The notes beneath the pieces are model-generated. The model was given only the letters and a program-made list of their open reading frames with translations, was not told where the DNA came from and ran no database searches. The position numbers and the translations under genes are program-made. Shown here piece after piece: positions 30,141-34,854 of a stretch of 64,000 bases of DNA. Source of the stretch: Microlunatus sp. Gsoil 973 (GTDB taxonomy: Bacteria; Actinomycetota; Actinomycetes; Propionibacteriales; Propionibacteriaceae). The stretch spans positions 1,426,001-1,490,000 of the forward strand of contig NZ_CP046122.1 in NCBI RefSeq assembly GCF_009707365.1, written 5' to 3'. The first letter of the stretch is position 1. Each line of letters opens with the position of its first letter.

Positions 30141-32924
30141 TCAGAGGGAAACCCGGTCCAGTTGGGTCCGCGAGTTGATCGCGAGCTTGGTGAACACCTT
30201 GTGGAGATGGTACTGAACCGTGCGGGCGCTGATGAACAACCGACTCGCGATATCGGGATTGCTCAACCCGTCCCGGGCCAGACGAGCGATCATGGTTTCT
30301 TGGGCGGTCAACGTGTTTCCGGTCGAAGCGGTTCGCTTGCGGGCGGTCTCGCCGGTCGCTTGGAGTTCGCGTCGGGCCCGCTCGGCGAATGCCTCCATAC
30401 CCATAGCATCGAACATCCGGTACGCCGTGCGCAGCTGGTTGCGGGCGTCGGCGCGGCGCCGTTCACGACGTAACCACTCGCCGTAGAGCAGCCGTGTCCG
30501 CGCCAGTTCGGCATCGACGGAGGTCTGTTGCAGGCTGGCCAGCGCGTCACGGAACTGTGTCTCTGCCTCCGCTCCTTCGGCCACTAACGCCTTCGACCGG
30601 GCGCCGACTCCGCGCGCCCAGTTCGTTCCGCTGGCAGCGGTCATCTCGGCGATCCAATCGGCAGCTTCGATCGCGACCCCGGTCTCGCCCCTCCGGGCTG
30701 CCGCTTCGACCAACTCCGCTGCTGCCCAATTCGCGATGCCGGGATAGTGACGATCCGGATACTCCTGCAGATCAAGGGCCCGCTGGGCGGCGGCCATGGC
30801 ATGGGCGTACTCACCGAGTCCGTTGTGCAGGATTGCCCGCGTCCACTCCGCGACAGCGGCGCTGATGCCCTCACCCCTCGACGTCCCGCGCTCGGCAGCG
30901 GAACCGATCAGCGAGTAGGACTCGTCCCGTCGGCCACGCATCGCGGCCAGGCACATGCCGCTGTACGGCGCCAACTGGCTGGCCGTCGCGTCGGTCACGG
31001 CGGCCTGCTCCTCAGCCAGCACCGCCAGGCCGACGAGATCCCCGGTGAACGACAGCATCATCGCGCGCGTACTCAGCGCCAGCGGCAGCTCACTCAGCGC
31101 TCCGGAGGTGCGGGCCAGCTCGACGTATCGCCTGGAAAGAGTCGACCATTGATCGTCATCCCAAAGGTGAAGGGCCGCCAAGGTCATCAGCCACATCCAA
31201 CGCAACTCCCGGTCCGCCGGCATGACGCCGGATCGGACCTCGTCGAACGCTACCAGCGCGTGCTGGAGGTTCCCGACGCCGGCTGCGTAGCCGTCGGTGA
31301 AGTTCGCAGCCAGGCCGGCCAGCAGGAAGTCCGTCGGCTCACGATCGGCCGGAACCGGCATTGAGAGTGCGGCCCGGGCTACGTCCAGCACTCCGCCTCC
31401 CGGGCTCGCGGCGCGACCGGCGAAGGCGGAGGCCGCGAGTGCGTCCAGGTACGTGTCCCGGGCCGTAGCGGGATCGATGGTCCGGAATCGCTCCGCGGCG
31501 CGGAATAGCAGCAACGGTGCCTCACCCCCACGGCTCAGGGCGAAGGCCAGGTGCGCCCTGGCCAGTGCCACAGTCGCCGCCTGGAGGTCGGTCAGCGGGC
31601 CGGACTCTGCCAGCTCCAGCAATTCCCCGGCCGCGTTGAACTCACCTGCCGTAAGTTTTGCCATGGCCGCTGTCAACGCCCGTTGGGCCCGTCGGACCGG
31701 ATCCAGCGTCAGGATCGCCGCCCGCTCGAGGAACGCGGCTGCCGCGACCAACCCGCCGCGCGCCCGCGCCCGGCCCGCCGAGCGTTCCAGCTCCACGGCA
31801 ACCGCCTCGTCCGGACCACCGGCCGCCTGAGCCAGGTGCCAGCTGTATCGATCCGGATCACGTTCCCGGTTGGTCTCCGCCGCCAGAGCGCCGTGTACCT
31901 GCTGTCGATCGCTGGGCCGAGCCGACCAGTAGCTGACGGATCGGGCCAGCGGATGCCGGAACCGAACCCGTGCCCCGAACTCCGCCAGCCCGGCGTCGAC
32001 GATCGGAGCTTCGGCATCGGCCTCGATACCGAGCCGGTGAGCGGCCCGCCGGACCAGGGCGGGGTCGCCGGTCGGGTCAGCTGCCGCGATCCTGATCAGC
32101 TGACGGCTCTGCGCGGGTAGCAACCCGATCCGGTAGCGGAAGCCCTCCTCGACGTCGCCCCACAGCGCTGTGCCACCAGGGATCGCGAATCCGCCGGCCA
32201 GCTCGGCGGGTGTGTTGCCACGCACCAGCTCCATCATTGCCAGTGGATTGCCCCGAGTCTCGGCAACGATCTGGTCCCGAACCCGCTGGTCCAGCGACGC
32301 CGTCAACACGGAGTCCAGCAGTGTCCTGGAGTCCGCCTGCGACAGTTCGGCGATTTTCAGGGTCGGCAACCCGGTGAGTTCGCGGCCGGGTACCCGGGTG
32401 CCGAAGACAAGCCCCACTGACTCGGCGCCAAGCCGTCGGGCGACGAATGCCAGGACCTGGATCGAGGCGTGATCCAGCCATTGTTGATCATCAACAAGAC
32501 ACAACAGCGGTTTGTCCCTGGCCACCTCCGACAACAGGCCAAGCACCGACAACCCGGTCATGAACATGTCGGGTGGCGCCCCGTCCGCGACGCCGAACAC
32601 CATGGCCAGAGCCTGCCGCTGTGGGGGCGGCAACCGGTCGATCCGGGAGACGTGCGGCGCACACAACTGGTGCAGCCCCGCGAACGGCAACTCCATCTCC
32701 GACTGCACGCCCCCGGCGCGGGCGATCTGGCATCCCTTCGAGTGGCCGTCGATGTAATCCAGTAGTGCGGTTTTGCCGACGCCCGGGACACCGTGGATCA
32801 CCAAGGGACCGCTACCGCCGGCGCGAACAACCTCGATTAATTGATCGATCCTGGCACATTCCTGCTGCCGGCCGATCAGGACGTTGCTGCGTCTCCCCGT
32901 TGGCGGACTGACTTGTCCAGACAC
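30141..32924 (-). CDS. Large LuxR-family ATPase regulator (LAL type)
   Basis: 927 residues. An N-terminal AAA-like ATPase with Walker A VIHGVPGVGKTALLDYI (about 43-59) and Walker B PLLCLVDDQQWLDHAS, then a long helical TPR-like middle (about 350-850). The C-terminal LuxR HTH (about 860-925) has LTAQETMIARLARDGLSNPD and SARTVQYHLHKVFTKLAINS. LAL/MalT-type activators couple ligand and ATP binding to transcription. GTG 32924. It converges on the SDR/alcohol-dehydrogenase pair, a possible but unproven target. Confidence 0.92.
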   Translation of the reverse strand: MSGQVSPPTGRRSNVLIGRQQECARIDQLIEVVRAGGSGPLVIHGVPGVGKTALLDYIDGHSKGCQIARAGGVQSEMELPFAGLHQLCAPHVSRIDRLPPPQRQALAMVFGVADGAPPDMFMTGLSVLGLLSEVARDKPLLCLVDDQQWLDHASIQVLAFVARRLGAESVGLVFGTRVPGRELTGLPTLKIAELSQADSRTLLDSVLTASLDQRVRDQIVAETRGNPLAMMELVRGNTPAELAGGFAIPGGTALWGDVEEGFRYRIGLLPAQSRQLIRIAAADPTGDPALVRRAAHRLGIEADAEAPIVDAGLAEFGARVRFRHPLARSVSYWSARPSDRQQVHGALAAETNRERDPDRYSWHLAQAAGGPDEAVAVELERSAGRARARGGLVAAAAFLERAAILTLDPVRRAQRALTAAMAKLTAGEFNAAGELLELAESGPLTDLQAATVALARAHLAFALSRGGEAPLLLFRAAERFRTIDPATARDTYLDALAASAFAGRAASPGGGVLDVARAALSMPVPADREPTDFLLAGLAANFTDGYAAGVGNLQHALVAFDEVRSGVMPADRELRWMWLMTLAALHLWDDDQWSTLSRRYVELARTSGALSELPLALSTRAMMLSFTGDLVGLAVLAEEQAAVTDATASQLAPYSGMCLAAMRGRRDESYSLIGSAAERGTSRGEGISAAVAEWTRAILHNGLGEYAHAMAAAQRALDLQEYPDRHYPGIANWAAAELVEAAARRGETGVAIEAADWIAEMTAASGTNWARGVGARSKALVAEGAEAETQFRDALASLQQTSVDAELARTRLLYGEWLRRERRRADARNQLRTAYRMFDAMGMEAFAERARRELQATGETARKRTASTGNTLTAQETMIARLARDGLSNPDIASRLFISARTVQYHLHKVFTKLAINSRTQLDRVSL

Positions 32925-33171
32925 TGTCTCACGCTATACCGCCAGGTCGCCCCGGCGCACCGGTCGCTTGCCTGGCCAGTGGCTGATGCGAAGCCACCTC
33001 ACGCTTGCCGACTTCCTGATCAAGCTGGACTTGTTGGCCGACGAGGACGCCACTGACGACGATGTCCGTGGCAGCACCACCGCGATGATCATCGATTCGG
33101 AGGTGGTCACATCCCGATCCTTCCGAACGTCGCGGCGCCTCGCGGCCGATCGCTCCCCCACCCTCGTGCGC

Positions 33172-33617
33172 GCCGCACCACTTGCGCGGCCGCGCACCAC
33201 TTGCGCGGCCGCGCACCACTTGCTCGGCGCCGCGCCACTTGCTCGGCGCCGCGCCACTTGCTCGGCGCCGCACCACTTGCTCGACCCCGCACCAGTTCCC
33301 CGGCCGCGCACCGGCTGCAGTTGGTGCGCCGCCGAGTACGTACAGCGGGAACGAGTACGTGGTGCGGGACCGGCCAACTGGTGCAGGCCGACCAACTGGT
33401 GCGCGAATGACCGGCACCGGCCGCCGCAGGTCGCACCACCTAATCGATGCCGCACCACTTGCTCGACGCAGCACCAGTTCCCCGGCCGCGCACCCGCTGC
33501 AGTTGGTGCGCCGCCGAGTACGTACAGCGGGAACGAGTACGTGGTGCGGGACCGACCAACTGGTGCAGGACCGACCAACTGATGCGCGAATGACCGGCAC
33601 TGACCGCCGCACGTCGC
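33172..33617. repeat. Array of 19-bp units in alternating orientation
   Basis: Noncoding. Forward units have the pattern CCA(C/G)TTG, about nine variable bases, then GCA or GCG. They recur every 19 bp at 33176, 33195, 33214, 33233, 33252, 33271, 33290 and 33309 (counted from the CA before CCA). After a 12-bp centre containing CTGCAG the same unit appears inverted (GGTGC..., at 33323, 33342, 33361, 33380, 33398). The pattern then repeats: about 165 bp from 33271 recurs at 33453 (offset 182, one 1-base indel) with its own CTGCAG centre and inverted arm. 19 is not a multiple of three, so the long open frames through it are artefacts. Confidence 0.85.
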
Positions 33618-33623
33618 TGACCG

Positions 33624-33642
33624 CCGCCGACGAGTACGGCGG
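33624..33642. other. Hairpin at the end of the repeat array
   Basis: CCGCCG, loop ACGAGTA, CGGCGG. The loop shares GAGTA with the inverted repeat units. It may close the array or act as a terminator. Confidence 0.3.
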
Positions 33643-33975
33643 TCCGGTCCGGGCGGAGACATCGAAAGAGCCGCGATCACAGTTAGCGCCCCTCTTACAC
33701 TGCTCTACCTCACCGGACGCACCGACCCTCAAGGCGAGCAGACGGCACTCGCGGCGATCGACACACTCCGGGCGTTCTACAACCACCCCGAACAGCTCGC
33801 CCGCCAACACGTTGAACTGCGATGCTGGGACGCCCGATAGCCGTTCCGTTCGTCGGTCGCCAAAGGATGTCGGTCTCCACATCGCGATGCTGATGACCGG
33901 TCCTCGGTCTTGACGGCCACCTGAGCACTGCGCGGCTCATTGGCCACTCCGGCCAGACTCTGGTTACGCCTCCTA
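33643..33975. other. Intergenic stretch with a coding-like plus-strand tail
   Basis: The frame from about 33664 to the TAG at 33838 reads DIERAAITVSAPLTLLYLTG, then TALAAIDTLRAFYNHPEQLA and ends ELRCWDAR. It looks protein-like but has no start codon, and I cannot assign a family. It is possibly the 3' end of a gene whose front was lost to the repeat array. The rest holds nothing I recognise. Confidence 0.3.
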
Positions 33976-34410
33976 CTAGTTCCGGGCGCAGGCCATGAGG
34001 AGGTTTCCGTCCGGGTCCCGGAACTGGAGGAACGAGACGCTGCCGATGTCTTGGACGTCGCCCACCGTATCGACCTGCAGGCCCTCAAGATGTGCTCGTA
34101 CCGATTCGAGGTCATCGACCCACCAGAAGAACCGCGGTGGTCCGTCGGCGGTGAAATCCGGCTGGTTGGCATCCAGCGCCAACCCGACTTCGCCGAGGGC
34201 AGGAAGATCATAGATTGTGCCCTCGTGGGTTGCTTTCCGCGCGGGCAGCCCGAGCAGTCGGGTGTACCACCCGATCGCCGTCGGCATGTCCCGGACTGGG
34301 ATGAAGACCTGGCCGATAAGGTTCGGGATCGGTACGGATTCGGGCGCCACACGCGGATGATACTCATTCCCGCAGATCTTGCCGAGCGGCAACTCGGTCA
34401 ATTGTGGCAT
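33976..34410 (-). CDS. VOC-superfamily (glyoxalase-like) protein
   Basis: About 144 residues. GQVFIPVRDMPTAIGWYTRL with LLGLPA opens the first beta-alpha-beta-beta-beta module; FFWWVDDLESVRAHLEG and FLQFRDPDGNLLMAC complete the second. Typical of bleomycin-resistance/glyoxalase relatives. ATG 34410 is used, though upstream sequence is open to 34464 and no ribosome site is clear. Confidence 0.75.
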   Translation of the reverse strand: MPQLTELPLGKICGNEYHPRVAPESVPIPNLIGQVFIPVRDMPTAIGWYTRLLGLPARKATHEGTIYDLPALGEVGLALDANQPDFTADGPPRFFWWVDDLESVRAHLEGLQVDTVGDVQDIGSVSFLQFRDPDGNLLMACARN

Positions 34411-34854
34411 TGTTGATCTTGGTCGGTGCTCGCTAGCCAGCACAGCCACCCCAGACAAGATCACCTCGACCTCGTCGTACGCATATCACCGAGCGCGGCC
34501 TCGCCACTGGAGTCGGTGTCTTGACGGGCGGTCCCGGCGGACGCGTGGCGGTTGGCAGTCCCAGGGAGGGGCAAGATCGAACAGTCCCTGATCACCACCG
34601 TCGATCTCTCCTTGTGGGTCCGATCGCGGGCGACGGCGGGATCACACAGCTTGTCAACGGTCCCACCCGCCAGCATGATCGGTGAGCCAGATCGCGGTGG
34701 CCCGCCAACTAACTGATCACTGATCAACATGATCTCGGTCGCAGGTACGGTTTCGGTCATTGATCGGTCGGAACTTGCGCTGCGTGCGAGCGGTGGTCCT
34801 GCAATCACAGACCACGAGCCAGACCATGGCGCCGGCCTGGTTGGGGCCCCCGGG
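34411..34854. other. Intergenic region, no gene seen
   Basis: No convincing reading frame. It contains a cluster of TGATCA palindromes (for example TGATCACTGATCA near 34708). Confidence 0.5.

Follow-up and report, generated by a model that had tools for sequence, protein, structure and literature searches.

A phased palindromic array in Microlunatus sp. Gsoil 973 as a probable member of a repeat family associated with a bracketed AbiEi/Vsr-like gene

A noncoding array of 19-bp units in a 64,000-nucleotide stretch of the Microlunatus sp. Gsoil 973 chromosome (the window) is probably an amplified member of a dispersed palindromic family that belongs to the gene its repeats bracket, which encodes a protein with an AbiEi-type winged helix and a Vsr-like nuclease-type region. 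In our best reading, the element can be likened to a REPIN and the gene to a RAYT in their arrangement, although the enzyme is unrelated. The source genome (G000) is a single contig of 4,913,910 bases, in which the window occupies C1:1426001-1490000.

The window array and its dispersed copies

The array (33174-33586) consists of two blocks, each with forward units, a palindromic centre and reverse units, and lies between two genes. Its features, in window coordinates, are as follows.

30141 to 32924, minus strand: neighbouring gene for an AAA_16 plus LuxR-type regulator, outside the element, its start facing the array
33174 to 33306, plus strand: block 1 forward units (n = 7, 19 bp, family consensus CGCACCAGTTGCTCGGCCC)
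33280 to 33355, no strand: 76-bp core element (unit, centre, unit), matched by covariance model R1 at E = 4e-12 and itself among the 42 sequences from which R1 was built
33307 to 33328, no strand: block 1 palindromic centre CGCACCGGCTGCAGTTGGTGCG
33329 to 33405, minus strand: block 1 reverse units, with scored starts at 33348, 33367 and 33385 (steps of 19 and 18 bp)
33432 to 33488, plus strand: block 2 forward units (n = 3)
33462 to 33537, no strand: second 76-bp core element, matched by R1 at E = 2e-8
33489 to 33510, no strand: block 2 palindromic centre CGCACCCGCTGCAGTTGGTGCG
33511 to 33586, minus strand: block 2 reverse units, with scored starts at 33530, 33549 and 33568
33976 to 34464, minus strand: neighbouring gene for a glyoxalase-fold protein, outside the element, its 3' end facing the array

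The seven forward units of block 1 start at exact 19-bp steps (33174, 33193 and so on to 33288), and the block is repeated 182 bp further on with 93% identity over 138 nt. Tandem Repeats Finder returned a period of 19 with 7.4 copies and a score of 182, the top score of the window. Self-match at lag 19 was 0.58 across 33160-33645 and 0.90 in the forward arm, and 1000 first-order Markov sequences, which served as a control for the value of 0.58, never exceeded 0.39 at lags of 5 to 59. The unit starts, Tandem Repeats Finder and the Markov control thus confirm the noncoding, fixed-phase array of the preliminary description, and the second copy of the forward-centre-reverse block is confirmed by the alignment. 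The 19-bp spacing that it gave for the reverse arm holds in general, although one reverse step is 18 bp, and the inversion is real but is better seen as turning on a 22-bp palindrome than on a 12-bp spacer. A protein-coding array was rejected because the 19-bp period rotates the reading frame and the gene caller predicts no gene there. An Rfam scan of the array region yielded only two sub-threshold matches (sucC, 21.8 bits, and Atu_C7, 15.5 bits).

About 48 array loci, a number obtained by merging blastn, centre-pattern and covariance-model results by hand, are dispersed through the 4.9-Mb genome and follow a common plan of forward 19-bp units, a 22-bp palindrome and reverse units; blastn of the array against its own genome gave 151 matches at E<=10. 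A unit matrix trained on the window units was used to rescan the window array and 38 further stretches of this genome, yielding 41 clusters of at least three units at 39 loci. The forward-to-reverse turn was 41 bp or 41+19 bp in 69 of 71 instances, the 60-bp turns being cases where one unit scored low, and the two exceptional turns measured 79 and 90 bp. Reverse-to-forward steps (n = 33) ranged from 43 to 147 bp, indicating a constant turn and a variable spacer. The exact centre pattern, CGCACCNNNTGCANNNGGTGCG, matched 75 times and its reversed control 0 times; with up to two mismatches the counts were 111 and 6. These loci also supplied the pattern, which makes the exact count in part a product of construction; the independent evidence comes from the control and from the relatives described below. 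Units are similar within a locus and differ between loci, and block duplications occur inside loci. Because the conserved unit ends, the phase and the inversion are real and recur at dozens of loci, a selected motif is favored over slippage alone, in agreement with the preliminary description.

The arms of the arrays are less complementary than expected: across 72 centres, with several to a locus, 882 of 1368 pairs were complementary, against an average of 928 after shuffling (z = -3.7). Judged from the sequences, this shortfall would fit avoidance of long perfect palindromes. The two arms also tend toward two linked unit types, and the base pair adjoining CGCACC/GGTGCG in the centres (e.g., 33313 with 33322 in the window) is complementary in 11% of copies compared to 38% expected. 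The 48 array loci show a slightly more regular spacing along the chromosome than random placement would give (CV 0.78, with 4.1% of random sets equally even), a trend absent from the solitary hairpins of the same genome.

Short hairpin elements in related genomes

The exact centre was found in 5 of 197 genomes of the family sample (75 matches in G000, 19 in G006, 8 in G012, 7 in G011 and 4 in G109). The elements of G006, G012 and G011 are short, being 76 bp long with a single unit on either side of the centre. At best, these short elements folded with 34-36 pairs at about -83 kcal/mol, and others were weaker (e.g., -47.5 for one of G012). To align the elements, 42 of 75 candidates were chosen (15 from G006, 8 from G012, 7 from G011 and 12 of the 45 from G000), and the consensus structure was drawn from the symmetry of the element. 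Among these 42 chosen sequences, changes on both sides of pairs occupied 195 cells compared to 90 after shuffling, and the covariation score was 0.341 compared to 0.123 after shuffling and at most 0.109 in slid controls. CGCACC, TGCA and GGTGCG are invariant in all 42 aligned copies, which were themselves retrieved with that pattern. Thus, of the cruciform or structured RNA proposed initially, a hairpin with compensatory changes is seen in the solitary 76-bp elements, whereas complementarity in the arrays falls below expectation; likewise, covariation of the paired arms is present in the 42 chosen sequences and absent inside the G000 arrays. In the four elements of G109, a member of another genus, the centre is shared and the arms are unpaired (z = -1.6).

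At E<=0.01, the 76-bp covariance model found matches in 16 of the 20 genomes of the genus and, with stricter filters, in 10 of 117 genomes of the order sample at E<=0.001, G000 being counted in both; the core element is therefore carried by other genomes of the clade and is not peculiar to one genome. Since the model tracks structure plus sequence, weaker matches elsewhere may include other hairpins (e.g., L260 and L262). In a blastn comparison of 40 genomes, G000 included, the long multi-unit form was strong in G000 alone, and 16 of the 39 others gave only short, weak matches (best E = 3.7e-6). Whole-array blastn missed the family in relatives because they carry the short form, whereas searches with the covariance model and with the pattern of the 22-bp centre recovered it there. 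A centre-pattern scan of named genomes gave, among the matches listed, many stretches in unrelated genomes.

The solitary near-perfect hairpins of G000 are a different subtype (TTGCCGCACC...TGCTGCA...) with 29 pattern matches, of which 25 are exact and 1 of the 4 inexact ones looks unrelated, and none in the control; 14 of these hairpins were seen in full, at L263-L272 and L274-L276. In G019, the elements (L243-L253) are 78 bp long, and several have extra single GCACCATTT-like units upstream. Few sites are shared between species in the partial sample compared for positional conservation.

A gene family bracketed by matching repeats

Comparison of flanking genes revealed that the same protein family recurs between two elements, at L272 and L052 in G000, L210 in G006, and L255 and L256 in G003. 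The protein is about 300 aa long, and its N-terminal half is AbiEi-like (PADLOC AbiEi in 59 and Pfam AbiEi_4 in 42 of the 60 sequences that, from 77 gene references, entered the alignment). In the C-terminal half, E188, D220, E231 and D233 are invariant in these 60 sequences and K237 is present in at least 90%; these five are the predicted catalytic residues of a PD-(D/E)XK (Vsr-like) type. Pfam matches in this half are weak and few (MTES_1575 in 6 of 60 and DUF559 in 5 of 60). The DUF559 domain resembles Vsr. The MTES_1575 REase is described as having a Vsr fold (PMC3710099), and the weak matches in few members together with the conserved residues mark the C-terminal half as a candidate Vsr-like PD-(D/E)XK nuclease-type region. 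A search of PDB sequences with the family found no solved relative. A homologue occurs in all 20 genus genomes at E<=1e-20.

To assess whether matching repeats bracket these genes, we compared the 350-bp flanks of the 68 genes with at least 250 bp on either side (L337, L342 and L356 were left out). A repeat shared by the left and right flanks scored >14 at 57 genes and >=20 at 52, compared to 1 and 0 of 275 control genes, respectively. Six of the 68 genes were seeds, found via their position beside elements; their removal left 51 and 46 of 62. In the class sample taken by itself, the corresponding counts were 21 and 18 of 25. Eleven of the 68 genes lacked a shared repeat, and four of six distant homologues, kept apart from the 68, shared one. 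Upstream of the gene, the median distance from the shared repeat to the start codon is 117 bp; downstream, the repeat follows the stop codon by a median of 20 bp. With 450-bp flanks, 37 of 43 genus genes exceeded the 95th percentile of mismatched flanks, and 33 neighbour genes reached at most 15. Of 26 genes from other genera belonging to the class, 22 shared a flank repeat (two of 28 loci were excluded). Some of the genes surveyed are not independent, L333/L334 and L348/L351 being near relatives with nearly identical repeats. The maxima for mismatched flank pairs were 143 and 155 in the genus and class tests, respectively. Both flanks were strongly palindromic at 23 of 43 genes compared to 0 of 33 neighbour genes and 0 of 37 window genes, the neighbour control not being element-free, as 18 of the 33 had one flank palindrome of at least 12. 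In addition, three of the four records found in a plasmid collection shared a flank repeat, including that of Collinsella, which belongs to another class.

The repeat differs from gene to gene and agrees between the left and right flanks of each gene. Repeat similarity climbs with protein similarity (Mantel rho 0.23, matched in 0 of 999 permutations), and clearly similar repeats are confined to near relatives, occurring in 28% of 18 gene pairs above 60% identity.

Genes of this family can also have repeat populations of their own within a genome. In G000, solitary hairpins flank the gene in L272, arrays flank that in L052, and a third, more distant gene (L327, C1:2262791-2263666) lies between copies of a separate repeat of about 90 bp; two G000 genes of the family lie at C1:3464708-3465595 and C1:4662291-4663178. 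The L327 repeat is not strongly palindromic (flank palindrome scores of 6.5 and 6.0) and recurred with scores >=20 in 7 of 60 fetched G000 stretches, which cover 379 kb and were picked for other reasons; the highest score was 15 for the repeat read backwards and 13 across 55 stretches from other species. Its loci are given in the following line.

L327, L048, L046, L044, L043, L041, L273 and L271 (G000): L327-type repeat (CGCCGAGGGGTCACATA...CGGCGTGTCG)

Since the L327 repeat recurs elsewhere in the genome, all three G000 genes found have a dispersed repeat of their own. For G003, G010 and G011, dispersed elements match, by eye, the bracketed gene of their own genome. Outside the order, the palindrome beside the G289 gene, which belongs to another family of the class, yields 48 matches in G289 when both strands are counted, 26 in the congeneric G307 and none in seven other genomes. 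In G012 and G019, dispersed elements are present and no cognate bracketed gene was found, indicating that the gene is not needed for their persistence.

Orthologous sites provide examples of both states. The stretch behind rpoC was fetched from 18 species including G000 and read in 17, the gene end in G015 not being located. A repeat-gene-repeat arrangement is present in G000, G006, G011 and G010, a single repeat without the gene in G012 and G019, and neither in the other 11; the covariance model, run on all 18 stretches, matched in those six species only. In G000 (L361) and G012 (L362), the element is the first hairpin behind rpoC, whereas in 14 of the 15 other Microlunatus species read the first hairpin is GC-rich and terminator-like, G005 having another kind. 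The element may therefore have replaced the rpoC terminator in G000 and G012, while a separate terminator-like hairpin is kept at the other four element-bearing sites (G006, G011, G010 and G019). At a second site, G003 (L256) has the order aldo-keto reductase, repeat, gene, repeat, metallo-beta-lactamase-fold gene, and G000 (L057) has an array only. Presence and absence at both sites are compatible with gene gain and gene loss alike. Behind rpoC in G004 (L373), different matching palindromes of the GACTTGTCAGAACT type lie at +98 and +1174, and the gene between them looks by eye like a phosphotransferase, not the AbiEi-Vsr type.

Alternative explanations, known systems and a proposed mechanism

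The positions of the elements bear on two alternatives. Based on a purpose-written gene caller, the 78 solitary elements from all species fall into 28 convergent, 39 tandem and 10 divergent gaps, with one inside a called gene, and the 46 arrays into 13, 25 and 8, respectively, compared to 19, 91 and 65 of the 175 background gaps of at least 80 bp. Within tandem gaps, the upstream stop codon is the nearer gene end for 34 of the 39 solitary elements and for 21 of the 25 arrays. This distribution argues against the reading that the repeats are operator sites of an AbiEi-type repressor or chromosome organiser, for which the flanking repeats would be autoregulatory, the dispersed arrays a regulon or structural set, and the nuclease region inactive or used elsewhere: divergent gaps are under-represented and the elements mostly sit near upstream stops. 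Known AbiEi proteins are described as regulating their own promoter, where they bind a pair of 23-bp inverted repeats (PMC3985639, PMC7319586), 19-bp phased half-sites would suit side-by-side protein binding, and the upstream repeat before the start codon and the slightly even chromosomal spacing of the arrays are also in keeping with operators. Nevertheless, the repeat is also found just 3' of the stop codon, a regulator that binds duplex DNA needs no compensatory hairpin arms, and the acidic residues E188, D220 and E231 are invariant, so that we consider operators unlikely. The same distribution, with its excess of solitary elements in convergent gaps, favors lineage-specific bidirectional terminators or mRNA 3'-end hairpins that spread by gene conversion and whose link to the nuclease-type gene is incidental, as do the hairpin energies as low as -83 kcal/mol and the elements that take the place of a terminator-like hairpin behind rpoC in G000 and G012. 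We judge this explanation distinctly improbable, because it leaves unexplained the matching repeats that flank 52 of 68 genes, the invariant CGCACC, TGCA and GGTGCG of the pattern-selected copies and the multi-unit arrays with imperfect arms, because a separate terminator-like hairpin persists at four of the six element-bearing rpoC sites, and because inspected elements show, by eye only, no evident T run after them.

A selectively neutral origin, in which a GC-rich palindrome expands by slippage and block duplication and no factor acts in trans, would account for the likeness of units inside a locus, for their differences among loci and for the duplicated blocks, but has very little to recommend it given 69 of 71 identical turns, some 48 distinct loci, the presence of related elements in further species and the bracketing of one gene family. 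Finally, the elements are extragenic, palindromic, dispersed and found in higher-order arrays, as would be expected of classical REP/BIME elements mobilised by RAYT, a Y1 HUH transposase, and REPs are described as forming tandem arrays too (PMC3116915). This origin is scarcely credible here, since Y1_Tnp (PF01797) was found in none of the 20 genus genomes at E<=0.001, compared to 5 of 14 control genomes.

The absence of the defining enzyme from those 20 genomes places the family outside the RAYT class. Its resemblance to REPIN-RAYT systems, as these are described, extends to short extragenic hairpin palindromes that are dispersed and genome-specific, a chromosomal gene beside matching repeats, and higher-order arrays (PMC3116915, PMC2817692, PMC8266576), but the bracketed gene here encodes an AbiEi-type winged helix with a Vsr-like nuclease-type region, not a Y1 HUH enzyme, and the element is a nested inverted repeat of a 19-20-bp unit that can be expanded to many units. 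The REP head tetranucleotide in REPIN-RAYT systems is described as being of the GTAG or CGTC type (PMC3733652). The family shares with the AbiE type IV toxin-antitoxin systems an AbiEi-like N-terminal region and, as described for known AbiEi, inverted repeats near its own gene (PMC3985639, PMC7319586), but has an extra C-terminal nuclease-type region and repeats that lie on both sides and are dispersed. None of the nine neighbour genes scanned at five loci matched an AbiEii-type toxin, which at those loci places the family outside AbiE; these neighbours matched RpoC, GATase/Pribosyltran, DAGK, prephenate dehydratase, MFS, KARI, aldo-keto reductase and the metallo-beta-lactamase fold, and one matched nothing. 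Few members match the Vsr-fold REase domains DUF559 and REase_MTES_1575 (the latter in PMC3710099) in Pfam, and the conserved pattern of E, D, E-x-D-G..K and E-K-x-R is common to them, although here the nuclease-type region is fused to an AbiEi region and bracketed by repeats. Like MITEs and insertion sequences with inverted ends, the family has a gene between matching ends and solitary ends elsewhere; unlike them, its genes are few and divergent per genome, no homologue was found in viral contigs and phages, and four records of the plasmid collection contain one. Among the matches listed from the open-licence PMC literature, a collection without subscription papers and preprints, no text connects palindromes, whether bracketing or dispersed, with AbiEi, DUF559 or MTES_1575 proteins. 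Because it matches no family found, though arranged like REPIN-RAYT, we regard this pairing of enzyme and repeat as new.

Under the reading that we favor, of repeats belonging to the bracketed gene, the winged helix would bind the repeated CGCACC half-sites, with the unit of about 19 bp as the footprint of one protomer, and the nuclease region would nick or cut the palindrome, either as such or in hairpin form. The element would then be copied, through break repair or by way of a hairpin intermediate, to further intergenic sites, most of them 3' of genes, and the same copying process could keep the copies within one genome alike. The arrays would be by-products, arising from duplication of 19-bp units and of entire blocks. 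Of the functions suggested initially for the array, a binding array and a recombination substrate are both compatible with a bracketed gene for a DNA-binding plus nuclease-type protein. More broadly, we see an even chance that Actinomycetes, with one hint from Coriobacteriia, harbor an undescribed class of selfish or domesticated repeat systems. In these, a chromosomal AbiEi-Vsr-type nuclease would recognise and cut the repeats that bracket it and in this way spread them and keep them uniform, with no part played by known transposases; a genome would have several such pairs (three in G000), one of which would have grown into phased arrays in the species of the window. REP-type repeats are described as widespread, and the described spreader is the HUH-type RAYT (PMC3116915). 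If the broader proposal is correct, the association of another, unrelated enzyme with bracketing repeats of its own would represent an independent origin of a REPIN-RAYT-like arrangement and could account for actinobacterial repeat families without RAYT. It would also provide a cis partner for proteins now annotated as a lone "AbiEi family antitoxin" or as hypothetical proteins, the annotations carried by one and three of the four plasmid-collection records, respectively. Each gene adjoins its own predicted DNA target, which makes the pairing directly testable.

The few, divergent copies per genome and the lack of a homologue in viral contigs and phages argue for a mainly vertical, RAYT-like life. 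Three of the plasmid-collection records, from Tsukamurella (L379-L381; NZ_LR134463.1, NZ_LR134451.1 and NZ_LR134465.1), carry pdxS, tatB, Mrp and polyprenyl synthetase, and these housekeeping-type genes suggest that the records are chromosome pieces deposited as plasmids. In G010, a split, apparently decayed bracketed gene (C1:1530477-1531191) adjoins an element at 1531278.
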